Shown: piece after piece, positions 42,234 through 60,250 of the stretch | Numbering within the stretch: position 1 is the first letter of the stretch | Layout of the letters: each line of letters begins with the position of its first letter | Assembly (NCBI GenBank): GCA_017506865.1 | Contig: JAFCMP010000457.1 | Coordinates: 372,001-436,000 of the forward strand | Length of the DNA stretch: 64,000 bases | From: Tribonema minus | Lineage: Eukaryota; Sar; Xanthophyceae; Tribonematales; Tribonemataceae | Direction: 5' to 3' | The notes under the pieces: model-generated | The model's database searches: none | Told to the model about the DNA's origin: nothing | Seen by the model: only the letters and a program-made list of their open reading frames with translations | Program-made: the position numbers and the translations under genes

Positions 42234-42308
42234 AGAGTAAACGAGTATTGTATGAGTACAGGGATGAAAAGTATATGTACGAGTACTCGTGCTGTACCAG
42301 TACAGCCT

Positions 42309-42361
42309 GTACTTTTTATTAATTCTCGCTCAGGGCGCGAAAAAGCCCAGATAATTGGCAT
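42309..42361 (+). repeat. Left 53-bp terminal inverted repeat of the RT element
   Basis: Pairs with 46578-46630. The likely start codon of the RT ORF (ATG at 42360) sits at its inner edge, so the repeat would form most of the 5' leader. Confidence 0.8.
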
Positions 42362-45300
42362 GTACTGCCTGTGTCCATGTACTAGTACTCATAGCGGCCG
42401 CGGTGGCGGCGGAGGGGGTCCCAGAGCGGCAGGTGCGGCGACAGCAGCGGCAGCGCCAGGCCCTGCAGGCGCAGCAGGTGGGGCAGGTGGGCTTTTCACG
42501 TGGACCATCTCAACCCCCGCAGTCGCAGCAGTGCTTGACAGCATCAGCCTCGATGAGCTGTGCAAGCTGCAGTTCGCGACAACTAGAAGCCTTGCTAGAC
42601 CACGCAATCGTCGCTATGTGGGAGCTGCACTGGAGAACGCAGCAACACATCTGTTGGCACACACAATGACGATGTTCGTCAATGCGGCGCGGGAGCCAGA
42701 TTCTGCAGGGCGGGTGCAGCGACTGCAAAGATCCACGATTCTACACCACCTCATGCCATCACTCATCACCTCCACCGATGGCGCACCTGGCATCACTCGC
42801 TCCGACAGAATCAGAATGTTGGCACGCGGTGAGCTTGACCGGTTGGTGCCAGCGCTCCTCGCACACGCGCGTGCGCACCGGCGCTGGCGCGCGCGCCAGC
42901 AAACGGAGGCAGCGATCAACGCCTACGTCCTACAGTGCATGGGCACACGGGGGGGGCTACAGCAGGCAGCGCGTTTCCTTCAGCCCAAAACGGTGGCGAT
43001 ACCTGATGATGACTGCTTTGCCGCCATGCAGTCCAAACACCCCCCCGCTGCGCCAGGGGAACAACTCCATGAGCTATCCGGCATGGTTGATCAGCTTGTG
43101 GCGAAAGCAGCCGACATGCCAGCAGAACTCAGCCTGTTACAGGGGGAGGGAATTGAGCCAGAGACGGTTGCCAAGCTCATCCAGCGAGCAAGCCCTTACA
43201 GTGGAGCAGGCCCATCGGGGCTGCGCTACAGCCACCTGCAGGATGCGCTACGCACAAGCTGGGGACGGCATGAGTTTGCTGCTGTCCTCACACGGTGGCT
43301 TCAGACCGTTATGCGGGAGGCTGCGCGGCTGCCGGATGCCTTCTGGCAGTTGCATGGCGCGGGGCGCCTGACGCCACTTGCAGAACAACAGGAAGATGGT
43401 ACAGCTAAGCAGCGGCCCATCGTTTGCGGCGAGGTGCTGCAGCGACTATGCACTTCGGTGTACGTGGCAGACCGCAAAGACTTCCTGGCGGAGCTCCTTG
43501 AGCCAGACGGGCAGTATGGGGTAGCCGTCTCAGCAGGAGCGGAGAAAGCGGCCATGGCCGGCAAACTCGCGTATGAGCTCGGTCACTGGCAGTTCATGCT
43601 GGACCTCAAGAATGCCTTCAACATGGTGTTCGTCCTGGCGGCAGCGGAATGGGTAGCAGCACAGCTGCCGGACTTCCTCGACTACTTCATCGGCACATAC
43701 GTTCGCACTCGGCCACGCCTGCTGTTCCAGCACGTTGACGGCTCCACGCGCATCATCATGTCTCAGCGCGGGTTTAAGCAGGGGGACCCCGCGGCACCGA
43801 TGCTCTTCTGCGGCGCCATTGCTCAGTGCTTGAAACGGTTCAATGAGGCGGCGGCTGCGCAGCGCGCGCGGAGGCGGATGGGCGCCTACATGGACGATGC
43901 CAACGTCCGAACAGGCGCTTGCACGCTGACTCAGGATGACATACAGGCGGTGGCGCAGCTCAAACAACACTTTGCGGAGGTGGGGCTGGAGCTAAACCTC
44001 ACCAAGTCACGCGCGCTGCCTGGCAGGGGGCATGTGGTGACAGACCACGAGCGGCAACTGCTGCAGCAGCTGGGCGTTCAGCTAGTGGGGGATACGGATG
44101 AAAATCAGAACCGTGGAGCTGTGTTGCTGGGGGTGCCGGTGGGCCACAGCAGCTTTGTGGACGCATGGCTGCGCAGGGAAGCGGGTGCAGGCGGGGCAGG
44201 GGCTCGATTTGCAGAGCGATGCGCGCGCCTGACATCTCCGAGGGCTATGTTCAGGTTACTGCGCTACTGCGTGGTGCCTCGCATGACGTACTGCCTGCGC
44301 ACCATTCCCACTACGCAGACAGCGCCAGCCGCCAAGGAGTGGGATCGGGTCACGCAGTGGGTGCTTGAGCACTCAATGGGCCTGCAGCCACCAGGCCAGA
44401 CCTGGCGCCAGTTTGAGCAAAGTGGGGCCCACTTCCATCTGGCAGCGCACGGCCCAGCCTTACAGCAAGCGCGACTCCCAACACGGCATGGCGGCCTTGG
44501 CATTACCAGCGCCTGCGACATCGCTGATGCTGCGTATGTGGCGGGCACGTTGCAAGCGCTGCAACCAGCACTCTCTGGATGGGCGGGGGTGCTGCAGCAG
44601 GCGGCTCCTCAAGCGGCTGCAGACAACGCTGCTGAGGATGCGGCAACACAAGCGGCACCGGCAGCAGCGGCAGCAGCACCAGCACCAGCAGCATCAGCAG
44701 CGGCAACTGTTACAGCGGCAGCGGCGGTTGCCAGTGGAGGCGCGACCGCTCCGGCAGCGGCAACTGCATCAGCGGCTGGCCGCGCTTATGGCGCAGCCAT
44801 TCCGGCAACACACGACGCAGCTGCCGCTGGATCAGGGGCCGCGGCGGCAGCACAGGCGGCACCAGCGGCAGCAGCAGCAGCGGCGGCGCACGGCGCAACT
44901 ACTCCGGCGGCAGCAGCAGCGGCGGCAGCAGCAGCTGCTCCAGCATCAGAGGCTGCTGCAGCAGCGGCAGCACATGTTGCACCTCAAGTGGCCTCGGCGG
45001 CATCACTAACTGCAGCATCAACAGCAGCGGCTGCGGGCATAGGCAATACAGCTGCTACAGGCCGTACTAGCCTAAGGGCTGCTGCAGCACCTGCAACAGG
45101 AGCAGCGTCGGCAGGCGGCGCCGCAACCGTGCCGGCTGCGACAGCGGCAATGGCGGTGGCAGCGGCCAATGCGGCAGGTGCTGCACCAACACCTGCGGCA
45201 GCAGCAACACCACTGGCAGCAGCAGCAACGGCAGGCGGCACAGCTGCAGCACCAGCGCACGCAGCAGCGGCAGCCGTCAATGCAGGCGCTGCGCGTTCCA

Positions 45301-45548
45301 CACCAGCAATGCTACAAGGCGCAGCAGCAGCAGAGGTGGCGCGCCTGCCCCTCATGCGGACGATCGCCACAGCTGCCACATCTCTACGTGCAGCAACAGG
45401 TGACAAGCTGGAACATATACTGCCACCAGCGCTAACGCCACTGCAGCAGCAACCACCTACGCAGCAGCCGCCGCTGCGGCCGACAGCAGGTGGTGGCACT
45501 GGTGCGGATGCTGCTTGCGTACTTGACGCCAGTGCAGTTGCAGTGTAG
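42360..45548 (+). CDS. Reverse transcriptase with long poly-Ala linker (ORF 1 of the RT element)
   Basis: The ATG at 42360 follows the left inverted repeat; the frame is open for 1062 codons. A Gly/Ala-rich start leads to a helical N-terminal domain, then the RT palm and fingers: SPYSGAGPSGLRYSHLQDAL, KQRPIVCGEVLQRL, LDLKNAFNMV (first catalytic Asp, about residue 413), SQRGFKQGDPAAPMLF, and the YMDD box in GAYMDDANV (about residue 511), followed by GLELNLTKS. After about residue 745 the protein becomes a 250-residue Ala-rich tract encoded by GCA/GCG repeats, where the two other frames also stay largely open as Gln-rich or Cys/Arg-rich. The ORF stops at 45548, 59 bases after the endonuclease frame opens in another phase. 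No zinc finger or Myb domain is obvious at the N-terminus. Confidence 0.85.
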   Translation: MYCLCPCTSTHSGRGGGGGGPRAAGAATAAAAPGPAGAAGGAGGLFTWTISTPAVAAVLDSISLDELCKLQFATTRSLARPRNRRYVGAALENAATHLLAHTMTMFVNAAREPDSAGRVQRLQRSTILHHLMPSLITSTDGAPGITRSDRIRMLARGELDRLVPALLAHARAHRRWRARQQTEAAINAYVLQCMGTRGGLQQAARFLQPKTVAIPDDDCFAAMQSKHPPAAPGEQLHELSGMVDQLVAKAADMPAELSLLQGEGIEPETVAKLIQRASPYSGAGPSGLRYSHLQDALRTSWGRHEFAAVLTRWLQTVMREAARLPDAFWQLHGAGRLTPLAEQQEDGTAKQRPIVCGEVLQRLCTSVYVADRKDFLAELLEPDGQYGVAVSAGAEKAAMAGKLAYELGHWQFMLDLKNAFNMVFVLAAAEWVAAQLPDFLDYFIGTYVRTRPRLLFQHVDGSTRIIMSQRGFKQGDPAAPMLFCGAIAQCLKRFNEAAAAQRARRRMGAYMDDANVRTGACTLTQDDIQAVAQLKQHFAEVGLELNLTKSRALPGRGHVVTDHERQLLQQLGVQLVGDTDENQNRGAVLLGVPVGHSSFVDAWLRREAGAGGAGARFAERCARLTSPRAMFRLLRYCVVPRMTYCLRTIPTTQTAPAAKEWDRVTQWVLEHSMGLQPPGQTWRQFEQSGAHFHLAAHGPALQQARLPTRHGGLGITSACDIADAAYVAGTLQALQPALSGWAGVLQQAAPQAAADNAAEDAATQAAPAAAAAAPAPAASAAATVTAAAAVASGGATAPAAATASAAGRAYGAAIPATHDAAAAGSGAAAAAQAAPAAAAAAAAHGATTPAAAAAAAAAAAPASEAAAAAAAHVAPQVASAASLTAASTAAAAGIGNTAATGRTSLRAAAAPATGAASAGGAATVPAATAAMAVAAANAAGAAPTPAAAATPLAAAATAGGTAAAPAHAAAAAVNAGAARSTPAMLQGAAAAEVARLPLMRTIATAATSLRAATGDKLEHILPPALTPLQQQPPTQQPPLRPTAGGGTGADAACVLDASAVAV
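44590..45330. repeat. GCN-rich low-complexity tract inside the RT ORF
   Basis: Imperfect GCA/GCG/GCT triplet repeats give poly-Ala in the ORF phase and Gln-rich or Leu/Pro-rich protein in the others. Triplet slippage explains both the length and the frame change that follows. Confidence 0.8.
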
Positions 45549-48914: not shown

Positions 48915-48918
48915 CTTT

Positions 48919-49237
48919 TGACACGGTTTGATATATGTACCCTGCACAAATGAATCACCTCGCAGTATATGATGAGCAGCCTCTAATATCCGGTCATACT
49001 CAAGAGTTCAGAATGCAGCATTTAGAAATGACTTAAGGTCCCAAAGGGAGCAAGTTCAAGACCTCCTCTTAGGGTTTGAACTTGTGGCCTGGGGAGTTTC
49101 AGTTACTCTGAGCACAGCAGTACTGGGAACCTTGGAGACTGAGAGACAAGCACGGAAGCTGGCCCTGATACTAGCCCAACACACCAAATGGCTCCCCTAA
49201 GTAAGCACAGTCTCAACTATAACCACCACACGTCACA
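48919..49237 (+). repeat. 5' LTR, 319 bp
   Basis: Starts TGACACGGTTTGATATATGT and ends ACCACACGTCACA. It differs from the 3' LTR at six positions by eye, five of them transitions, so the insertion is fairly young but not new. Confidence 0.95.
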
Positions 49238-49238
49238 A

Positions 49239-49256
49239 TGGCAAACCAAGAGCAGT
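49239..49256 (+). other. Putative tRNA primer-binding site
   Basis: TGGCAAACCAAGAGCAGT starts one base after the 5' LTR; the initial TGG would pair with a tRNA CCA end. Which tRNA is used cannot be told from sequence alone. Confidence 0.45.
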
Positions 49257-50081
49257 CCTTACCCAACCTCGCGCTTCGCGAGCGGACCCGAGACGCACCT
49301 ACATGCATAGCGCACGCACGGCACACGCGAATCGCGTGGTCGTGTGGGCATTCGTCTTCATTTATATTATCCTCGCCTATACACACTACGCGCACCTCGC
49401 ATCATCGCTCTAGTTACCCTCACTCCAATTTATTTCGCGTCAGTTATTCGTTCGTCCACAAGTAGACACGCGCGTGATGCGGACGCGCTAGCCGCGTTGC
49501 CATTCGTTCTCACTAAACAAGAGAGAGAGAGAGCGAGAGAGAGAGAGCAGACGCGGAGGATCTGTAGCGAACGGGACGTACTCCGTCGCCACACGATTTT
49601 TCTGGCCCCGCAACCAGCCATTGCGCCGGTCAGACACTTTGCAGCTGTGCTTTAGCTGCGAGAGAGCACGCCCTCGCTCGGGTGTCCGCGTCCATGCGCA
49701 GCTGCGGTTCACACACCCGCGCCGCTGCGCGTGGCGTCCATCGTTAGTGCTGTGCTAAAGAGATGATAAGTCTGAGTGTCAATACTTCTTGGCACGAGCA
49801 GGGTTTACGTTGGCGACAGATAATGCCCCCCTACTTTGTTTCTCAGCACCTTAAATGGTGTAATCGACCTGTTGCAACAGGACGTCTTGCAAGATGATGT
49901 CGGCATCTGCTCGTGCTGCCACGGTCCAGAGCGGCAGAGAAGTGTGTGCAGGCTATGAATGCGGGAGAGCATGTCATGATGCACGGCGAGAGAGATGAGG
50001 GAGAAGAGAGAACCACACGGCTAGACAGCAGCACTAACAATTGACGTTAAACAGAGATTGCATATTGCTTTGTGCAACAAC
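49257..50081 (+). other. Long 5' leader of the LTR element
   Basis: About 800 bases separate the primer-binding site from the first in-frame ATG of ORF 1. It contains a GA microsatellite (49511-49548) and short open frames without family resemblance; it would hold packaging signals, but none can be identified. Confidence 0.55.
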
Positions 50082-53000
50082 ATGATGTTTGCCAATACAA
50101 TGAAATGCAAGCGTGACCGGGGCTGCTCGACGGTGGCGTGGAGTGGAACCCACCGGGGCAGGACCTTGACGTCCGGTCATGTGAGAGACAGACCAGCACT
50201 ACGTGAAGGTGCTGGTTGTCAGAGAGTGCTGTTCCATGCTGGCATATGCATGGACGCTAGAGCACAGCGATTTCACACGATCACATTGATGTTGAAGTTC
50301 AAGTGTCTCACGGGATTCCCGTGCCCATGTGCAGACACTGACTCCCAAAGGAAAAGGAAGGGAGGTGGTGGTCCGGCTAGGCCCGCCGCAGCGAGAAAGC
50401 AGAAGACAGTGCCTGCTGACGCCCTGCAGGCGTTGAACGATGACACAATGAGCGAAGACGAGGGGAGGTCGTCTGCTCCTCCAACCCCTCCTCGCGAGAC
50501 TGATGAGGTAGAGGAGGAGTTTGAAGGCAACAAGAGCCCTCAAGAGAACCTGAACGAGCCCGAACCCGAGACAGAGAAGCACAGCGAAGGCGAAAGCTCT
50601 GGTGAGACCGAACCGCAGCTTACCGCCGCGCACGTAAAGTACAATGCGCTGGTCGCTCTGGTGGCTAGCACGCGCGACGGCATCATCAATCGCCAACAGC
50701 GCAAGCAAGAGGAGGAGGCGTGTCAGCGCGAGCTCGTGAAGCAGCTCGCAGCTGACCACGAGACGGAGCGGAGGCTGTTGCGGCTCGCGAAGCCGGACAC
50801 GTCCGAGCGCGTCGCGTGTCAGGCTAACCTTACCGCGCTGACGCATGACAGCGTGTTGGCGGAGGGCGCTTTAAAGCAGGCTAGCGTTGACTTGCATGCC
50901 TTGTCGATGCGGGCTGATGCAATCTCCACTGCGTCACGAGAGATCAATACCATTTTTGACATGGATGTCTCTGACTCAGAGAAGATGCGCAGACTCGAAC
51001 AGTATGCGAATGGCAAGTTGAAGGAGCACTTACGTGAGGGGCGCATGGTCTTTGCGCCGGGTCCGCTGTCGCTGGGCAGCACTGCCCCCACCACCGAGGA
51101 TACCACTGTTGGATCTAAGGTCGGTAGCGACAGTGAGGACTCGGGCAAGGCCGCGCCAAAGAAGAAAGCCATAGCCAATGGGGGGAGTGACCAGTCGGGG
51201 CACAGGGATCTGACGTTGTCAAAGATCGCCAGTGTTGCCGGACTGTCATCCACCCCAGGCATGTGCTCCGTGCAGCTCGATGCCCTTGTAAGTGAGGTCG
51301 CCGAGTTCGACGACAAGGGCCAGCGTTTCGCCCTGAAGTCGGCCATCCGCGGCTCGAGGGACAAGACACTGATCAACACCGTGAACTTCCTCACGCGCAT
51401 GTCGAACGGGAGGATCACCACGTACGGCCAGCTCCCGTTCGCCGAGCAGGTCGCTGCGATCAAGGATCACTTCGACTCAGACATCGCGCGCGAGTCGGCA
51501 CACAACGACATCAACCACGCCGTTCGCCTTCCCCACGAGACCCCGCAGAAGCTGGCACTGCGCGTGCGCAGGCTCTGCACGGCGACGGGCACGGAGGTTG
51601 AGGGAGAAGCGGAGAAGATGCACTTCCTGCGGCTGCTCACCAGCCAGGAGCGTGGGCAGCTGACCTTTCGCTTTGGTCAGGGGTGGCGCAGACGGTCGAT
51701 TCAGCAGCTATCGACGGCAGCTAGCGTTGAATGGGCGCCGGCAGCACCGGCGGGCCCGAGGGCCCGCGCGGGCGCCAAGTCCGCTGCAGCCAGCGGCGCC
51801 ATGAGCGATGCTTCTGAGGCGTCCCTCTCAGACGAGGAGCAGGAGGGCGGGAGTGCGAGCGCCGGGGGCAAGTCCCTTGCCGCGCGCGAGATGAAAGTGG
51901 CCGCGAGGGAGCGTAGGGTGGCCAAGCAGGCGGCCAAGCTTGAGGCCAAGGAGAAGACCTCCACCGCGGCAGCCACCATTGCTGCCGCTGCAGTCATGGC
52001 CGCGGCGCCGCCCCGGCCGGCGATGCCGCCGCCGTATGCGCGCCCGCAGCGCCCGGACTGGCAATGCTACCAATGCCGTCGGATGTTCCCTGGCACTGTG
52101 ATGCCGCACGTGCACAAGGCCAGCCAGGCCTGCCTTGACGCTTGCGCGGCGGCGCAGGCCAACTCGAAGCCCACTGCGCCGTCAGGCTCGTACTATGGCC
52201 CTGGGGCAGCGCAGCACCGCAACGGTGGGGCGCCGTCGCATCGCGGCCCGCCAGCGCTGCCAGCACGCGCGCCCGCGCCGGCGCCGCCGGCGGCAGCCGC
52301 TGCTGCCGCACCCACGGGCGGGTCTGACGAGAAGAGTTTTTCTGCGTTCATAGAGTACAGGCGCTGGTTGGACCAGCAAGGTGAGCCTGCGTCTGTCGCG
52401 CGCACTCTGGCTAGTCCCCCTTCGGGTGGCGGCACCAGTCGTGTGAGCGCCGAAGCAGAGCTGAATATTGCCTTGGCAAGTGAGAACGTGCAAGCCGCTG
52501 TTGCCACTGCGTCGAGCCCCGCCGCGCAGAGGCACGCACGCAATGAGCAGCTATTGCACGCTATGCTAGCACCATCGCCGCTGAGCTCTGCCACTAGATT
52601 GGCACCCTCAGTGGGCGACAGCGTTGAACTAAGCGAGGCAACGCATGATGAGATGAGCACTGATGAAAACCTTGAGCTGAGTGATGCAACACGTGATGAC
52701 GCAAGGCATTTTGCTGCTTGCGCTGTTGCCGCGGCACAGGCTCCGGACCTTAGCGCGCCTGTCAGCGGCGCTGGGCCAGAGGCGGCACGGCGCGTAGCGC
52801 ATGCATCCATATGCTGCGGCATCGGTGGCTGGGACGAGGGATTGAGACAGGCAAGTTTGGCGGGCCTTGCGGTGGACACTAGACTTGCAGTCGACAAGTG
52901 TCCCCGTGTGTGTGAGGCCTACCATGAACTTCACCCTGCTACTGTGAAAGTGATGAACGCGAGTTTGAGTGATGATGCAGTCACCAAGGCACTGGTGGAA

Positions 53001-54635
53001 CTGGATCCTGACTTGACCACGATGTCCCCCCCGTGTACAGATTACGCGAACGGGTTGGGTGTCGAGGGAGAGGCAGCTCAAGTGACGGTGCACGCGGCAA
53101 AGCTGATCGTGAGGGCGAAGCTGCGCTGCTGCGTGCTGGAGAACGTTGTGGCCATGCTGAGCTCCAAGGCGTGGGCGCAGGCGGAGGCAGTGCTGCTGGC
53201 GCACGGCTACAGTCTGTACGTCTGCAAGCTGAAAGGCTCAGACTATAGCATAGCATGCCATAGGAGGCGGGTGTACAGTCTCGTTGTCCGGGCAGGGTCG
53301 GGGGTTGCCCCTGCCATGGAGCGGTTTGGTGCACTGCTAAATGCAATACGGTTCGCTTCACTACCTACCTCCGTGCGTCGCGTCCTGTGTTGCCCTGAGC
53401 GCTGTTTCTTTTGGAAATCGCGTGTTAAAGGTGCTAAGAGCGTGTATGATGCCAATGACTGCATGCCAAGCCCTGTTAGACGGAATCCAGGGGAACCCCC
53501 TGTTGATCCTTCTCAATACGTGCCTGATGCGCAGCATGATGCTGGTCAAGTGCATGAAGCCCGTGTGCTATCATTGCGCGAAATGGCGGTCTTGCTCACG
53601 TTTACACGTGACCTACCAACCAAGGCCACCGCAAAAGAGATGAAGTTGTGGCTTATGAATTTGGTCATGCCCCGCATGGTGTTTCACATTGCAGTAGCGC
53701 TTTTGGGCTCTGGCGTATTTGATCTCCCAGCAGGTGCCCCCTTTTCCAGGGGTACCCGCGTGGACCACGACCCCGATGCACCACCCCCAGAGTGGATGGT
53801 CTCGAGTCAGGGAATCAATATGCATGTGGCAGAGGATCCCAAAGAGCAGGAATGGGTGAAGGCAAGGATAGCTGCTGCCAATGCACCAGGTGACACGTGG
53901 CAGTATGCTGTCACGCCTGAGATGTTAAGCGAAGAAGGCTTGAACACGGGCCCATGGGCCGACTTGAGCCTTAATGATGAGGCAGAGGATGATGGCAACG
54001 AGTCAGACGAGTCAAGTGAGTCAGACTTGTCAATGAGTCAGACTACTGAAAGCTCCAATCCACCACCGTCAGAGGCAGCCTCACTACCAGAGAGCCCTGA
54101 TGGAGGTGAACACGAGTTTCAGGGAGCCCCTCATGAAGTGGCGCGCAGAGAAGGGCTAGGCAATCCACGCGTTACCGCGGTGGCTGCCATGTGTCACGAT
54201 AAGGCCAGGGACCCCCGCACCACTGTGGACCCGGCCTCTATCAGACCTGGCGAGCAAGTCGTACTTCCCACCGGGGAGCCCAGCAAGAAATGCTTTGGCC
54301 GGCTCATTGCACGAGTGCAACGGCGCAAGGTGTTCATTGAGCGCGACTTCGTGTCACTGCTTGACCCTGGGGCAGAGGCGAGCATGATGTCAAACACTGA
54401 GGCCACCAACCTCTCTGAGGGCGCGATCTGCGCGCTAGAGAAGGGGGATCATACAGTGATTGAACTAGCAGACAATCAGACGAGAGTGAAAATTCAGGGA
54501 ATGGTACACCTCACCCTAAGATTTGGTAACAAGCTGATGAGGCACAAGTTCTACGTTGTGAACCTGCCCATCACTACCATCTTGGGAAGTGATTTCTTTG
54601 GCCAGTACAAGACTCTGTTTAATACGGGGACTTGA
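50082..54635 (+). CDS. Gag - C5 DNA methyltransferase - aspartic protease polyprotein (ORF 1)
   Basis: Open for 1517 codons from the first ATG. Residues about 60-340 are charged and coiled-coil-like (acidic EVEEEFEGNKSPQEN, then a Lys/Glu helix). Residues about 390-555 resemble a capsid domain, with FLTRMSNGRITTYGQLPFAE and LPHETPQKLALRVRRL. A Lys/Glu helix follows, and a Cys/His cluster WQCYQCRRMFPG...HVHKASQAC near 660 may replace the usual zinc knuckle. Residues about 905-1210 are a cytosine-5 DNA methyltransferase (own entry). An acidic Ser-rich linker leads to a retropepsin-type protease: LLDPGAEASMM (catalytic Asp-Pro-Gly in place of Asp-Thr/Ser-Gly) and the flap-end motif TTILGSDFF near 1498. 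The frame stops at 54635; the downstream pol frame is -1. Confidence 0.9.
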   Translation: MMFANTMKCKRDRGCSTVAWSGTHRGRTLTSGHVRDRPALREGAGCQRVLFHAGICMDARAQRFHTITLMLKFKCLTGFPCPCADTDSQRKRKGGGGPARPAAARKQKTVPADALQALNDDTMSEDEGRSSAPPTPPRETDEVEEEFEGNKSPQENLNEPEPETEKHSEGESSGETEPQLTAAHVKYNALVALVASTRDGIINRQQRKQEEEACQRELVKQLAADHETERRLLRLAKPDTSERVACQANLTALTHDSVLAEGALKQASVDLHALSMRADAISTASREINTIFDMDVSDSEKMRRLEQYANGKLKEHLREGRMVFAPGPLSLGSTAPTTEDTTVGSKVGSDSEDSGKAAPKKKAIANGGSDQSGHRDLTLSKIASVAGLSSTPGMCSVQLDALVSEVAEFDDKGQRFALKSAIRGSRDKTLINTVNFLTRMSNGRITTYGQLPFAEQVAAIKDHFDSDIARESAHNDINHAVRLPHETPQKLALRVRRLCTATGTEVEGEAEKMHFLRLLTSQERGQLTFRFGQGWRRRSIQQLSTAASVEWAPAAPAGPRARAGAKSAAASGAMSDASEASLSDEEQEGGSASAGGKSLAAREMKVAARERRVAKQAAKLEAKEKTSTAAATIAAAAVMAAAPPRPAMPPPYARPQRPDWQCYQCRRMFPGTVMPHVHKASQACLDACAAAQANSKPTAPSGSYYGPGAAQHRNGGAPSHRGPPALPARAPAPAPPAAAAAAAPTGGSDEKSFSAFIEYRRWLDQQGEPASVARTLASPPSGGGTSRVSAEAELNIALASENVQAAVATASSPAAQRHARNEQLLHAMLAPSPLSSATRLAPSVGDSVELSEATHDEMSTDENLELSDATRDDARHFAACAVAAAQAPDLSAPVSGAGPEAARRVAHASICCGIGGWDEGLRQASLAGLAVDTRLAVDKCPRVCEAYHELHPATVKVMNASLSDDAVTKALVELDPDLTTMSPPCTDYANGLGVEGEAAQVTVHAAKLIVRAKLRCCVLENVVAMLSSKAWAQAEAVLLAHGYSLYVCKLKGSDYSIACHRRRVYSLVVRAGSGVAPAMERFGALLNAIRFASLPTSVRRVLCCPERCFFWKSRVKGAKSVYDANDCMPSPVRRNPGEPPVDPSQYVPDAQHDAGQVHEARVLSLREMAVLLTFTRDLPTKATAKEMKLWLMNLVMPRMVFHIAVALLGSGVFDLPAGAPFSRGTRVDHDPDAPPPEWMVSSQGINMHVAEDPKEQEWVKARIAAANAPGDTWQYAVTPEMLSEEGLNTGPWADLSLNDEAEDDGNESDESSESDLSMSQTTESSNPPPSEAASLPESPDGGEHEFQGAPHEVARREGLGNPRVTAVAAMCHDKARDPRTTVDPASIRPGEQVVLPTGEPSKKCFGRLIARVQRRKVFIERDFVSLLDPGAEASMMSNTEATNLSEGAICALEKGDHTVIELADNQTRVKIQGMVHLTLRFGNKLMRHKFYVVNLPITTILGSDFFGQYKTLFNTGT
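52796..53710 (+). other. Cytosine-5 DNA methyltransferase domain within ORF 1
   Basis: All major C5-methyltransferase motifs are in order. Motif I: SICCGIGGWDEG (52806-52841), binding S-adenosylmethionine. Motif II-like: AVDKCPRVCEAY. Motif IV: MSPPCTDYANG, with the catalytic Cys codon at 53034-53036. Motif VI: VLENVV (about 53132-53150). Motif VIII: HRRRVYSLVV, with the Arg pair kept but Gln replaced. Motif IX: LSLREMAVLLTF. Motif X: NLVMPRMVFHIAVALL. The spacer between motifs VIII and IX, where target recognition lies, is short (about 95 residues). Catalytic residues are intact, so an active enzyme is plausible. Domain order Gag-methyltransferase-protease suggests release by the element's own protease. 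Confidence 0.92.
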
Positions 54636-55342
54636 CATACAGGCCACTGGGATTGGAGGGGCCCACGTTGAAGATGCTAGATAGTTCAACAGTGAAGCAA
54701 GCGCCCGCAGAGTGGCGCGATGCGAGGGTTTCGGGCGTATTGCACGCCGAGGTGTTGGCCAGTACACCACCGCCACACCGTGCGGTGTGTCTGCAAGAGG
54801 ACATAATAATACCTGCCCACACTGAGATGAATGTGGAAGTTGCTTTGTGCCCCCCAGTCAAGGGAGTTTGCCCCTATGCTGCGGTGATACAACCAGCAAC
54901 CACACAAACCATGATGCGGTTGCAAGAGAGAGGAATTAAAACGGCGATGTCTGTTGACACGGTTGGATCTCACAACCCAGTGCGAGCTCGTATGGTGAAC
55001 TTCTCTGACCAACCTGTCTTGGTTTCCAGAAACACCCTAATTGGGGAAGCCATACCAGCTCGACCTGAGGATATCATTGAATTAGAGGAGGCTGAGTTGC
55101 ACATGTTGGAGCAACGACTCTTGCAAGTAGCAGCAGAACAGCACCCCGACGCCGCATTCAAAGTGGCGGCCATGCAGGCCCTGAAAGAGATTGATGACGA
55201 GAAAATTGCTGGTACTTATGGAGTGACCAAGGTGTCAGCTGCCACGTCGGAAGACGCTCAGCGCACCCGCACTACCCAAGAGCCATGCACCGAGGAAGAA
55301 TTGCGCGAGATGCTCCCTAAGTCAGGTGCCTTCATGACATGA
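54632..55342 (+). CDS. Pol spacer between protease and RT (ORF 2a)
   Basis: This frame lies -1 relative to ORF 1 and overlaps its stop. It begins LTYRPLGLEGPTLKML and contains CLQEDIIIPAHTEMNVEVAL and VNFSDQPVLVSRNTLIGEAI, the beta-rich connector typical of Ty3/Gypsy polyproteins between protease and RT. It ends with a stop at 55342 next to the RT frame. No independent start is evident; a -1 frameshift from ORF 1, or a mutation in this copy, would link them. Confidence 0.7.
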   Translation: MTYRPLGLEGPTLKMLDSSTVKQAPAEWRDARVSGVLHAEVLASTPPPHRAVCLQEDIIIPAHTEMNVEVALCPPVKGVCPYAAVIQPATTQTMMRLQERGIKTAMSVDTVGSHNPVRARMVNFSDQPVLVSRNTLIGEAIPARPEDIIELEEAELHMLEQRLLQVAAEQHPDAAFKVAAMQALKEIDDEKIAGTYGVTKVSAATSEDAQRTRTTQEPCTEEELREMLPKSGAFMT

Positions 55343-56631
55343 AAGCTGCGGACGGCAGGCCGTATGCGGAGCATCTCATGGAAGTGATCAGGGAATTTTC
55401 TGGAGTCTTTGCAAAAGATCCCAAGAACCCCACTGTCACCAACCTCATGGAGTTTGAGATTGACACGGGAGACACATTGCCTATTGCGGAAAAGGCAAGG
55501 CGCTGGGCACAAAAAGAAGCAGAGTACATTATGGAACATGTCAAGGCCATGCACCTGCGTAAGCAAGTGGAGCCTGGCAATGGACCATGGGCATGTGACC
55601 CGGTGTTAGCCAGGCAGGGTGACAAGATTCGCTTCTGTGTGGACTTCCGACGGTTAAATGCAGTGACTAAAAGAGGAAGCAGAGATTTAGGCAACATTGA
55701 TGATATGGTGCATCAGATGAAGGGCGCACGCTATATGTCATCAATTGACATGGCTGCAGGCTACCATCAGATACCACTGCGGGAGAGCGACAAAGCAAAG
55801 ACAGTGTTTCGCACACCTGATGGGGGATTGTGGCAGTACACAGTTGCACCATTTGGACTGGTGAACTTGCCTGCGCAGTTCACCCGCCTAATGCACAACA
55901 CCCTAGGCTCTGCTCTAGGTGCGTATGCAATGGTGTACGTCGACGATGTGCTGATATATGACGATTCAATTGAGTCGCATATTGCACACATCAAAGATGT
56001 GCTGTCAAGGATTGAAAAGGCAGGACTGAGCGTGTCTAGACACAAGTGCCAGTGGTTTCAAACAGAAGTCAATTTTTTGGGTCACATTGTGGGCTCAGGT
56101 GGCATACGCCCTGACCCTGATAAGGTGAAGGCGATGGCAGACATGAGCGCCCCATCAAACCAAAAACGTAGAGTTGACAGGAGCCTCATACGCGCTGTGC
56201 TTGGCTGCTTCAACTACTACCGGCGCTATGTGCAAGATTTCGCTAAGCTGGCTGCACCATTAGTGGAAATGACGAAAACAGATGCTGACATGGTGTGGGA
56301 CCGACGAAGGCAGGACGCCTTTGCAGCACTGAAAGAAGCCATGTGCTCAGCGAAGCTGGTGTCACACCCGGACTTCAACTTGCCGTTCGTACTGTACACA
56401 GGCGCCTTTCAAACGGCTACATGTGGCATACTGACGCAGTTCAAACCGGCGGAACAGCTCAGCGGCAAAGAGGCTGCACCTGCGGCAGGCCGCAGGCGCA
56501 CAGTAAATGGGAGGGAGGAAATGGAAGTAGTGGTGGGTCATTCTTCAAAAATTAACTCTACGCAAGATGCGAAGATGGGCGCCACGGCGCTAGAGTGCTT
56601 AGCCGCTGTGCTATCGCTCAACCATTTCTGA
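55339..56631 (+). CDS. Reverse transcriptase and 5' part of RNase H (ORF 2b)
   Basis: Typical Ty3/Gypsy RT: FCVDFRRLNAVTKR, YMSSIDMAAGYHQIPL, TVAPFGLVNLPAQFTRLM, YVDDVLIYDDS (catalytic YVDD, about residue 200), FLGHIVGSGGIRPDP, and a connection domain with VLGCFNYYRRYVQDFAKLAA. RNase H starts near residue 340. The frame ends at a TGA (56629-56631) exactly where the RNase H motif should continue into the next frame segment, which is in the same phase. A single C-to-T change at a CpG would create that stop, so this looks like a nonsense mutation rather than a real end. Confidence 0.92.
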   Translation: MKAADGRPYAEHLMEVIREFSGVFAKDPKNPTVTNLMEFEIDTGDTLPIAEKARRWAQKEAEYIMEHVKAMHLRKQVEPGNGPWACDPVLARQGDKIRFCVDFRRLNAVTKRGSRDLGNIDDMVHQMKGARYMSSIDMAAGYHQIPLRESDKAKTVFRTPDGGLWQYTVAPFGLVNLPAQFTRLMHNTLGSALGAYAMVYVDDVLIYDDSIESHIAHIKDVLSRIEKAGLSVSRHKCQWFQTEVNFLGHIVGSGGIRPDPDKVKAMADMSAPSNQKRRVDRSLIRAVLGCFNYYRRYVQDFAKLAAPLVEMTKTDADMVWDRRRQDAFAALKEAMCSAKLVSHPDFNLPFVLYTGAFQTATCGILTQFKPAEQLSGKEAAPAAGRRRTVNGREEMEVVVGHSSKINSTQDAKMGATALECLAAVLSLNHF

Positions 56632-59613
56632 CCTTACGTGTGGGGTAACCCTACCACGGTAGTGACGGATGCAGCGGCATTGCGATGGCTGTTGACGCTG
56701 CAAGACCACAACGGCAAGCTCATGCGGTGGGCAATGAGGTTGATGGAGTACGACATTACCGTACAGCATCGCCCCGGCCTTGTGAACTCTAACGCCGACG
56801 GACCATCTAGGCTGCCAATGCAGAGCGAGCTAGATGCGCCGCGAGAGTATGAGCCAGCAGATGAAAAGTGGTCGGACTCCATACCGTGTTCTGCGGCACC
56901 GCCCTCAGGGGCTCGGTTCCAAGACATGCCAGACTCACACACCACAGTGAAGGCGAGCGCTGTCAAGATTGCCACGTTTAGGGGGCGCATCGTGAGCACT
57001 GAATGGGGGCACCCCTTCAGTCTCAACGAACTCGCCATGAGCCAAGCTGGTGATGAAACCGGTCTAGCTGCCAAACTGGCCAAGATGACAGTCGCGCAAG
57101 TAAATGAGATGCTAGATGAGCTAGACGAAGAGCTGGGTCCGTGGACGGATGGAGAGACCGCGTCTATGCTCTTCAGTCCGGCTACTCTTCACATGTATGC
57201 AAATGCACGCATGGATGAGGCGGCAGAGTCCGATTGGGACCCACCTGCCCCTAGCAAAGCAGCAAAAAGAGCACGAAAGAAGGCACGGGTTGCAGCCAGC
57301 ACCATCGAGCGGCCTGGGGGCGCCATCCCTCCGTCGCGCGCTGATGAGTCGTCTGAGGCTGTTAACGAGCCGCGCCGCAAGCGTACACTCAATGAGCAGA
57401 GCCGCGGACTGGTGTCACAGCGCACTGAGGGACACCCCCTCACGCCTGCAGCGCTCAGCCGTGAGGCTTTCATAGAGCTACAGCAGAGAGACGCGTTCAG
57501 TCAAGCAATAGCGCGCACGCTGAGAGAGGGGACTTTGCCCCAGGACGGCGAGCTAGCGCTGCACTTGATGATGAACAGGGACTGGTACTGCTTAGAGGAA
57601 GACGGACTGCTGGTGCACCTGGCCACCAGCCATCCCAAGCGCGGGACTGTGCTGCGCCAATGGTATGTACCAACAGCACTTCGTGCACTGGTGATCAGGC
57701 TCGGGCATGACGATGCCACTGCAGGGCACGCTGGGGTTAGCGCTACTCACTTGCGCATCTTTGAGCGCTTTTACTGGCCTCAGATGGGCACTGATGTACG
57801 CACCTACGTCACCAGCTGCATGGCATGTCTGCAGCATAAAAAAGCGACCACTGGCAAGGCCAAGTTGATGTTGACGCTGCCAACTCGCATGTTCCAGCGG
57901 GCGCACACTGACATCACCATGACCTCAGTGACGTCTAGCGAAGGGCACATTGGATTACTCACGGTGATCGAAGCGCGTTCTGGGTTCTGTTGGCTTATGC
58001 CAATCAAGAACAAAGACATGCTCACCACTTCCAAACTGCTCTACAAGGTGATCCTTGAGTCAGGGTCAATGATACAGGAGTTGGTGTCAGACCAAGGAAA
58101 AGAGTTCTTGAACGCAGTGGTGAGCGACCTGTGTAAACTCTTCAAAATCAAGAAGATCGATACCAGCGCATACCATCCGCAGGCCAATGGCGTGGCTGAG
58201 CGCCAGAATGAGAGGATCATGGCAGCATTGACTATGTGGGTCAATGCCACCCAGAAGAACTGGCATGAGGGCATAGAAGCCGTGCAGTACGCGCTGAGGG
58301 CTACCCCACGAGAAGACACTGGGCTCAGCCCCTTCTTCTGCGTGTACGGGCGCGAACCGTCAGTGCCCTTTGCGACGTTCACTGATCAGACGCATGGCGG
58401 TGACCTACACGCTGAGATTGAGCACAAGTTGTCAAACTTGAAGTTGGCGCAGAAAGTGATAGACGAGGCATACGGCAGCAAGGCAAGCCGTATTGACAAG
58501 GTCAATGAGGCTGTCAAACGCGCCATGAAGGTGAATGTTGGGGACCTTGTCATGATCCGCCAGCCACCTGTGCCCGGTCGCTCTAAGAAGCTGGACCCGA
58601 AGTATGTGGGCCCGTGGGTCGTGAGCGAGGACAACAGTGGGTCAGGGCTATCATTTTCGTGCCGCATTATGGGTCGGCGCATCCGCCGTACCCGCATGCA
58701 TGTCACAAACATGAAGCCCTTCCACTTGAGGCCCGACGTCCAGGAGACGGAGCGGCCCTATGCACTGCTCACCGAGGAAGAGCTTAAGAGCTTGCCAAGA
58801 GACGAATGGTTAGAGCGTCTCGTGGACCGCCGTTACAACCCCAATGGTACGTGGGACTACCGGTGGCTCCCGCGAGATGGGTCTAAGAGTGCATGGAAGA
58901 CAGAGGATGAGACGCTTGAAGTTGCGATGCCTTTGACGCTCGACACCTTCCACGCTCTGTACGAGCTGAAGCACGAGCACGGCATGCCGGATTATGCCAA
59001 GAGGGTACCCAGCGACAGCCGCCCAGCTTTCACTAAAGAAGCTGCGCTGGCCTTGTTTCCCCGAGGCACTGAAGTTGTGAGAGAGCATCGCGAGGCGCTG
59101 AAGCAGCACATCACCTATGTGTGGGGCTCAGTCGCGGGCTACCTCTCACCCTATTGGCGTGTCAGGTACGAAGATGGCGAGTGGGAGGACTTCACTAAGA
59201 GGCAGTTGCAGTGCGCAGTTGCTCTTGCTGAGGCCACTCGACAGCGTGCACGAGAATTGGGTGTCACCACCGCTGCCCCCACAATGGTGCAAGCGATGTG
59301 CCCCATGATCCCTGCGGACTTTGGTGAGACCTATGTAGGTCAGATCGTGAGAGTGAAGAACGTCACTGGTTGGAGCCGCGGCGTACTCAAAGAGCACATG
59401 CCCCGGTCCAGCAAGTTTACGTTTCGCGTGTTGTACAATGGTCACCCCGCAAACCGCCTGACTACTGTTAGGTTGCGGCCTGATTACTACGTCACCGCGA
59501 TTACCGCAGAAGAGGCCGAGAGCTGCCCCATGTCGAGCTGGAATCTGTTGCTGACCACCGTAGGGGGTCACGAGATGGCTAGCGCCGATGAGGTGGTAGA
59601 GATAGAAGATTAA
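56632..59613 (+). CDS. RNase H end, integrase and Tudor-like C-terminal tail (ORF 2c)
   Basis: It continues the RT phase after the TGA: TTVVTDAAALRWLL and HRPGLVNSNADGPSRL finish RNase H. Integrase follows with the HHCC zinc domain (HDDATAGHAG...SCMACLQHK), and the DDE triad in HTDITM, SDQGKEF and VAERQNERI. GDLVMIRQPPVPGRSKKLDP and GPWVV form the SH3-like C-terminal domain. The protein then runs on about 280 residues, with YWRVRYEDGEWEDFTKRQL (about 59150-59205), which resembles a Tudor/Agenet-type reader, and a second beta-rich segment ending in RLRPDYYV. Such tails can steer integration by binding chromatin. The stop is at 59613. Confidence 0.92.
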   Translation, partial: PYVWGNPTTVVTDAAALRWLLTLQDHNGKLMRWAMRLMEYDITVQHRPGLVNSNADGPSRLPMQSELDAPREYEPADEKWSDSIPCSAAPPSGARFQDMPDSHTTVKASAVKIATFRGRIVSTEWGHPFSLNELAMSQAGDETGLAAKLAKMTVAQVNEMLDELDEELGPWTDGETASMLFSPATLHMYANARMDEAAESDWDPPAPSKAAKRARKKARVAASTIERPGGAIPPSRADESSEAVNEPRRKRTLNEQSRGLVSQRTEGHPLTPAALSREAFIELQQRDAFSQAIARTLREGTLPQDGELALHLMMNRDWYCLEEDGLLVHLATSHPKRGTVLRQWYVPTALRALVIRLGHDDATAGHAGVSATHLRIFERFYWPQMGTDVRTYVTSCMACLQHKKATTGKAKLMLTLPTRMFQRAHTDITMTSVTSSEGHIGLLTVIEARSGFCWLMPIKNKDMLTTSKLLYKVILESGSMIQELVSDQGKEFLNAVVSDLCKLFKIKKIDTSAYHPQANGVAERQNERIMAALTMWVNATQKNWHEGIEAVQYALRATPREDTGLSPFFCVYGREPSVPFATFTDQTHGGDLHAEIEHKLSNLKLAQKVIDEAYGSKASRIDKVNEAVKRAMKVNVGDLVMIRQPPVPGRSKKLDPKYVGPWVVSEDNSGSGLSFSCRIMGRRIRRTRMHVTNMKPFHLRPDVQETERPYALLTEEELKSLPRDEWLERLVDRRYNPNGTWDYRWLPRDGSKSAWKTEDETLEVAMPLTLDTFHALYELKHEHGMPDYAKRVPSDSRPAFTKEAALALFPRGTEVVREHREALKQHITYVWGSVAGYLSPYWRVRYEDGEWEDFTKRQLQCAVALAEATRQRARELGVTTAAPTMVQAMCPMIPADFGETYVGQIVRVKNVTGWSRGVLKEHMPRSSKFTFRVLYNGHPANRLTTVRLRPDYYVTAITAEEAESCPMSSWNLLLTTVGGHEMASADEVVEIED

Positions 59614-59910
59614 AGAGCAACAGAAGACTTGAACAAGAGAGAAGATGAGATTAGCATAGCACCTCAAGACGAACAGTGGTTTGTTGAGACAGTGCTTTGT
59701 ACGCTAGGTGGTACGATGCTTTAACCGGATGCATACCATTCTAGTACCCAGGTGATCATTGTGATGAAACGTATACGGCGCACACCACGTCGAAAGTTTT
59801 CACGGGACGCAGCGGGTTGAGGGTAGAAGTGAGGATGTGCAGTGTGCATATACATCACCGTGGCGATTAACGTTGATCCCATAAGATCTTGACAATTCTC
59901 TGGGGACAGA
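59614..59910 (+). other. 3' untranslated part of the LTR element
   Basis: No open frame of note. It separates the integrase stop from the polypurine tract. Confidence 0.7.
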
Positions 59911-59931
59911 GAAAACTCGAGAAGGGGGAGT
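59911..59931 (+). other. Polypurine tract
   Basis: GAAAACTCGAGAAGGGGGAG directly precedes the 3' LTR, in the place where plus-strand DNA synthesis is primed. Confidence 0.8.
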
Positions 59932-60250
59932 TGACACGGTTTGATATATGTACCCTGCACAAATGAATCACCTCGCAGTATATGATGAGCAGCCTCTGGT
60001 ATCCGGTCATACTCAAGAGTTCAGAATGCAGCATTTAGAAATGACTTAAGGTCCCAAAGGGAACAAGTTCAAGACCTCCTCTTAGGGTTTGAACTTGTGG
60101 CCTGGGGAGTTTCAGTTATTCTGAGCACAGCAGTACTGGGAACCTTGGAGACTGAGAGACAAGCACGGAAGCTGGCCCTGATACTAGCCCAACAGACCAA
60201 ATGGCTCCCCCAAGTAAGCACAGTCTCAACTATAACCACCACACGTCACA
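59932..60250 (+). repeat. 3' LTR, 319 bp
   Basis: Same length and ends as the 5' LTR; followed by the second CTTT target duplicate (60251-60254). Confidence 0.95.

Follow-up and report, generated by a model that had tools for sequence, protein, structure and literature searches.

A cytosine-5 DNA methyltransferase domain carried by Ty3/Gypsy retrotransposons of a photosynthetic alga

The window, a stretch of 64,000 nucleotides, carries at positions 48918–60250 (about 11.3 kb) a Ty3/Gypsy LTR element that is a member of a large group in a photosynthetic alga, its assignment to Gypsy being drawn from the order of its domains. Between its Gag-like and protease regions, the element codes for a cytosine-5 (C5) DNA methyltransferase domain (MT), which, as judged from comparisons among copies, is inherited with the element and subject to purifying selection.

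Element anatomy and enzyme type

The element is enclosed by a pair of LTRs identical at 314 of 320 positions, as expected of an LTR retrotransposon, and CTTT is observed by eye at the outer side of both. The features of this copy are the following:

48918..49237, + strand, 5' LTR, 320 bases, 314/320 identical to the 3' LTR
49239..49255, + strand, candidate primer-binding site, begins TGG, recognized by eye after the 5' LTR
50058..52790, + strand, Gag-like region upstream of the MT, from its position and a CxxC...H...C finger-like motif at 52065
52796..53710, + strand, cytosine-5 DNA methyltransferase domain, PF00145 E 1.4e-13, with motifs and conservation in relatives
54309..54635, + strand, retropepsin-like protease region, D-P-G-A motif at 54357, PF13650 E 0.096, under the cut-off
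54632..55342, + strand, protease–RT linker, in a frame that differs from the first ORF
55339..56631, + strand, RT and first part of RNase H, RVT_1 E 3.8e-30, YVDD at 55936, ended by TGA 56629–56631
56638..59613, + strand, end of RNase H, integrase zinc finger and core, and C-terminal tail, H2C2 E 4.9e-19, rve E 1.6e-9
59931..60250, + strand, 3' LTR, 320 bases, paired with the 5' LTR

No tRNA gene for comparison with the candidate primer-binding site was found in 18 loci or in the window. The first ORF (50058–54635, + strand) comprises 1,525 open codons and bears out the single uninterrupted frame proposed in the first-pass annotation of this DNA. The order Gag, MT, protease proposed there holds by position and motifs, with two softer labels: the Gag-like region gave no Pfam Gag match and is named from its position and finger-like motif, and the protease match falls under the cut-off. 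The protease region aligns with the DPG, DSG and DNG of its relatives, one of which, L029, gives a match likewise below the cut-off (E 1.9e-4). Apart from this weak protease match, the order RT, RNase H, integrase, as detected with Pfam here and in the relatives, is that expected for Ty3/Gypsy. The pol part is broken in the window by a frameshift after the protease, a second one before the RT and a TGA inside RNase H, and the window element is a decayed copy; in relatives with long open frames, a single frame carries the Gag-like region, MT, protease region, RT, RNase H and integrase.

The integrase tail (58480–59610, + strand) has a Tudor-like stretch under the cut-off (E 0.0011) and a weak match to a chromodomain chain (E 0.023), and in a relative, L031, the chromodomain match is a true one (E 1.1e-6). 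Together, these stretches hint that writer and reader domains may coexist in one element. Upstream of the MT element lies a second retroelement, a 1,098-codon ORF (42252–45548, + strand) with an RVT_1 match (E 1e-10).

The Pfam DNA_methylase family matches residues 916–1080 of the first ORF (51.4 bits, cut-off 22; E 1.4e-13). The window MT contains CCGIGG (52812–52829), SPPC (53025–53036), which holds the putative catalytic Cys, ENV (53139–53147), CHRRR (53256–53270), LREMAVLLTF (53574–53603) and NLVMPRM (53658–53678); the motif numbers used here are those which we take to belong to these segments. Motifs I, IV with its Cys, VI and VIII of the C5 MT fold (PF00145) are all present, and NLVMPRM corresponds to a divergent motif X. 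The earlier description of a complete C5 MT in a Gypsy element is upheld for the key motifs and the Pfam match. The Cys, ENV and RxR are invariant across the 12 members of group A1; in L036, SSC replaces PPC.

When compared with solved structures, a profile of 12 MTs gives DNMT2 as best match (1.3e-20) and also retrieves the bacterial enzyme 3g7u (1.3e-14), DNMT1 (2.5e-14), M.HaeIII, M.HhaI, a 4fsx chain (1.1e-11), which we take to be a plant CMT, and 7r76 (4e-4), presumably Dnmt5. The best solved match of the window MT by itself is a DNMT2 chain (3.2e-4). No DNMT3-named chain was retrieved by the profile among 53 matches at E 0.01, in a search run without a DNMT3 positive control, or among the best 60 of 77 matches at E ≤10, which already include unrelated proteins. 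A DNMT3 type is not supported for the element MTs on this ground, with the same reserve about the control, and their type is thereby set apart from that of KnitGypsy-Dnmt3. The NCBIfam dcm model (TIGR00675) scores 39.1 bits, below its cut-off of 100.65.

In a tree of 18 MT rows, the element MTs form one cluster (99/97) that leaves out solved DNMT2 and M.HaeIII as well as three genes of the host genome, one DNMT2-like and two virus-like DNMTs; a grouping with DNMT2 was not recovered, the element MTs standing away from the host gene (L004) and 4h0n in a tree with a small outgroup and long branches. In a tblastn search of phages, the window MT matched one record (22%) and the MT L007 matched 55 (best-covering 27%), and pattern scans of IMG/VR, which reach close relatives only, gave no relative of either.

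Copy number, linkage and conservation

The alga's own genome (158 Mb in 554 contigs) contains at least 120 matches to the window MT (119 of 481 candidates scored), at identities from 100% to 39%, mostly 76–80%, 67–74%, 48–49% and 43–44%. At least 27 of the matches listed are embedded in open frames no shorter than 3,000 codons. Among these, the match at C511:993597 is interrupted by a stop, and the frame at C218:14583 continues into a different element. PF00145 as query gave at least 123 matches, from 123 scored among 378 candidates; they take in more distant elements as well as a few non-element genes.

The window RT has at least 99 matches (98 of 619 candidates scored), of which 98 were used, the second piece of the C512 copy being left out. 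At 80 of the 98 listed RT places, an MT from the window-MT and PF00145 listings precedes the RT on the same strand at no more than 5 kb, the distances being 1,535–2,494 bases, and further MT searches raise the number to 85 by adding C290, C157, C79, C56 and C506, two of these five MTs being broken by stops or shifts. The remaining 13 places comprise four that begin less than 2.7 kb from the contig start (C450, C55, C6, C161) and nine with no MT among the matches listed (C13, C507, C112 twice, C105, C27, C23, C268, C511). The first-pass annotation had held that copies without the domain would speak against its proposal; at most nine of the 98 listed RT places are of this kind, and the wider family that it envisaged is indeed present. 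In group B (L030, L031, L034, L035), whose RT is about 29–30% identical to that of the window, at least 23 of 58 RT places, picked from 98 rows, are paired with an MT among 31 PF00145 places.

Among twelve copies of one subfamily, nine show 23 variable columns over 3,990 bases, which indicates recent spread; the three others were left out, their alignments to L011 containing 76, 311 and 633 mismatches. The changes among the near-identical copies are too few for a judgement on CpG change. L028 had been considered as an MT element without RT, a reading that was rejected: its sequence is 99% identical to L029 for 6.0 kb, after which other sequence follows. At this locus (C218:10000–19999), the Gypsy MT element continues, in one long open frame, into what looks by eye like LINE-like sequence. 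L026 (C311:1–9999) is an MT element within a 6,208-codon frame, about twice the usual length, and perhaps represents two elements.

Comparison with L023 (contig C130, frame of 3,104 codons), the closest long-frame relative read, reveals an uneven conservation along the polyprotein. The Gag-like parts are 28% (78/280) and 37% (84/226) identical and a linker 34%, whereas the MT reaches 80% (244/304), the linker after it 56%, the protease region 71% and the RT 86%. Between L031 and L034 of group B, identity is 39% in the N-terminal part, 63% in the MT and 81% in the RT, so that the MT is there less conserved than the RT. For the MT, five pairs have dS from 0.04 to 1.5, and their Nei-Gojobori dN/dS is 0.09 (L034–L035), 0.12 (window–L011), 0.18 (L028–L029) and 0.25 for L034 against each of the near-identical rows L031 and L030; pairs with larger dS give unreliable values of 0.14–0.61, and many pairs have none. 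The RT, at 0.07–0.13 in three pairs with dS below 1.5, is held more tightly than the MT.

The MT and RT trees are concordant in their supported parts: the window pairs with L023 and then L025, L036 with L033, and group B is distant in both; L029 and L027 take no firm position. The RTs downstream of L005 and L007 share 63% identity with the L031 RT. A chance insertion of a host gene in the window copy only, an outcome that the first-pass annotation had named as damaging to its proposal, is ruled out by the presence of the domain family-wide: copy number, linkage, dN/dS, conservation contrast and trees all speak against it.

A third lineage, C, was recognized from five RT places listed at 36% identity to the L031 RT, all with one identical score. 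The MT site was read in three of them, L053 (C33), L054 (C16) and L055 (C8), and one and the same MT-like domain is encoded in all three. With the retro-MT profile, L053 reaches 64.7 bits, against 2.4 for the highest-scoring of 200 shuffles, and its reversed sequence is absent from the listing; with Pfam it scores 21.3 bits, just below the cut-off of 22. In all three copies read, the match ends at profile position 89 and restarts at 108, with motif IV and the catalytic Cys missing, which indicates that catalysis is not required everywhere. The open frame around the L053 domain runs to 3,452 codons. In L054, a change in length right before motif I leaves the preceding part out of frame, and L055, read from motif I onward, has one gap relative to L053. 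The domain would here be either retained for a non-catalytic purpose or in the course of being lost. The MT is present in three distant Gypsy lineages; given the long branches and small outgroup of the tree, a single gain before these lineages split is plausible, not proved.

Proposed role of the methyltransferase in the element

Constraint and linkage together imply that the MT has a part in the cycle of the element itself, and methylation of the element's own cDNA is the most likely reading, to which we give about an even chance. Made between Gag and protease, the MT would be packaged together with Gag in the particles of the element and would there methylate the newly made double-stranded cDNA. 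New copies would enter the genome already marked, and may pass as host DNA or escape nucleases or sensors of unmarked DNA. Copy number, MT–RT linkage, low dN/dS, the contrast between MT and Gag, concordant trees, recent spread and invariant residues count in favour of self-methylation; that DNMT2, the best solved match, is a tRNA enzyme and that lineage C lacks motif IV in 3/3 copies read count against it. Self-methylation of cDNA is a published idea for the precedent elements, and experiments in yeast bear on it in both directions (PMC5890265, available excerpts): two SymbioDIRS MT domains were active and methylated CG, while the Klebsormidium Gypsy MT, like that of SymbioLINE, gave no methylation, a result that the authors call inconclusive.

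The DNMT2 likeness would also suit an enzyme acting on RNA, either the element's genomic RNA or the tRNA primer within the particle, since DNMT2 chains are the top solved match of both the MT profile (1.3e-20) and the window MT (3.2e-4). We consider an RNA target unlikely: the lead of DNMT2 over DNMT1 and the bacterial DNA enzymes is modest, the host DNMT2-like gene clusters with solved DNMT2, away from the element MTs, and CFT, a motif of DNMT2, is not seen in the window MT. An MT that acted in trans, upon the genome of the host or upon other elements, and disturbed or redirected host methylation is improbable to the same degree. The many copies in long open frames speak for it, as does the Symbiodinium genome, described as unusual and mostly CG-methylated (PMC5890265, excerpts), but K. 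nitens carries such elements and yet has, in the material available, a plant-like methylome.

A domain that chiefly binds nucleic acid or aids particle assembly, with catalysis secondary or lost, would account for the missing motif IV of lineage C, there retained within the long open frame of C33, and for the SSC of L036. It is a shade less likely again, given the invariant Cys, ENV and RxR of A1 and the frame split before motif I in L054, which suggests that loss of the domain may simply be under way in lineage C. Doubtful, though somewhat less so, is a composite history in which the MT would be an old element-resident family, gained once before the three Gypsy lineages split and inherited with the RT, whose catalytic loop was excised in one lineage, leaving a fold with a structural or nucleic-acid-binding use. 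The decay of the window copy would fit a host gene captured by chance and carried without use, a very improbable explanation that is contradicted by copy number, low dN/dS, the conservation contrast and the agreement of the trees.

Host and relation to known elements

The genome contains 92 matches to chlorophyll-binding proteins. Two light-harvesting pieces have their best matches among chlorophyll-c type antenna chains, the one diatom-type FCP chains (1.6e-30) and the other multi-domain LHCI chains (9vfj), and a partial 18S is, as we take it, stramenopile-like. We take the host to be a chlorophyll-c alga, probably an ochrophyte, and the different host lineage that the first reading had raised as a condition is supported. 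CpG observed/expected is 0.28 in the LTR and 0.75 in the whole window; the low LTR value would fit 5mC, without proving it. A search of the host for an SRA domain gave no match, its controls being equally silent. The host DNMT2-like gene (L004, C523:358815–359333) is split by exons and groups with solved DNMT2. Three further DNMTs (L001–L003) are located in or beside virus-like stretches (L037, L038 and L039, on C223 and C181), which also code for a DEAD/ResIII helicase, DUF4379 and a nucleotide kinase, and four IMG/VR contigs encode relatives of L001 at 30–32%. A viral source of the element MTs was rejected, since L001 and L002 group apart from them in the tree of 18 MT rows.

C5 MTs in retrotransposons have been published for Symbiodinium and for the charophyte Klebsormidium (PMC5890265, excerpts), as the first-pass annotation had correctly stated, so that this kind of element is already known. 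KnitGypsy-Dnmt3 of Klebsormidium nitens resembles the present element in having a C5 MT in a Gypsy LTR polyprotein, with key residues retained and purifying selection (Ka/Ks under 0.2), and is described in the same excerpts as of DNMT3 type, with the MT in the Pol ORF, a green host and reportedly a DIRS-like repeat arrangement. In contrast, and compared by description, the element MTs gave no DNMT3 match, lie before the protease between an ordinary LTR pair, and occur in several deep lineages of a host with chlorophyll-c type antennae. The independent capture suggested earlier is supported by enzyme type only, from the missing DNMT3 match, the published retrotransposon MTs being compared by description. 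SymbioLINE-Dnmt and SymbioDIRS-Dnmt3 share with it many intronless MT copies in retrotransposons but are LINE and DIRS elements of a dinoflagellate, the SymbioLINE MT being of an orphan type that is set beside ours by description (PMC5890265, excerpts).

Algal Gypsy elements with extra domains are also known from Ectocarpus, with chromo or Tudor readers and, in one lineage, NADAR at the start of Pol, to which the L031 chromodomain and the weak reader-like tail of the window compare; the excerpts available mention no C5 MT and note a 4mC/6mA type MT for the DNA transposon Sola1 (PMC12477816). Bacterial and phage Dcm-type MTs (TIGR00675, phrog_116) match the catalytic half, but the element MT stays below the NCBIfam cut-off, has a divergent second half and forms part of a retroelement polyprotein through fusion. 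DAM- and DCM-encoding Gypsy and DIRS elements are stated in general terms, with no family named in the excerpts, for stramenopiles, red and green algae and charophytes (PMC6338049), and LTR Copia and DIRS elements with DNMT3 are reported (PMC12344493, excerpts). In the available parts of the retrotransposon-MT literature, including PMC9998398, PMC12344493, PMC10538959, PMC6338049, PMC12477816 and PMC5348765, and mostly outside subscription papers and bioRxiv preprints, we found no described C5-MT Gypsy family outside streptophytes. The present elements differ from the published precedents in an MT type whose profile matches DNMT2, DNMT1 and bacterial enzymes, its location before the protease, its presence in three distant Gypsy lineages and a host that is probably an ochrophyte.

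It is a puzzle that retrotransposons should carry the type of enzyme that many hosts use for their silencing, with two lineages in print in the sources available. A further host group, another enzyme type, another position in the polyprotein and many copies, some near-identical and recent, suggest a recurrent strategy. As catalytic and motif-IV-less versions occur within one genome, selection on methylation itself becomes testable. If the fold does serve in non-catalytic work, this would be a retrotransposon protein that uses a DNA methyltransferase fold structurally or for nucleic-acid binding.
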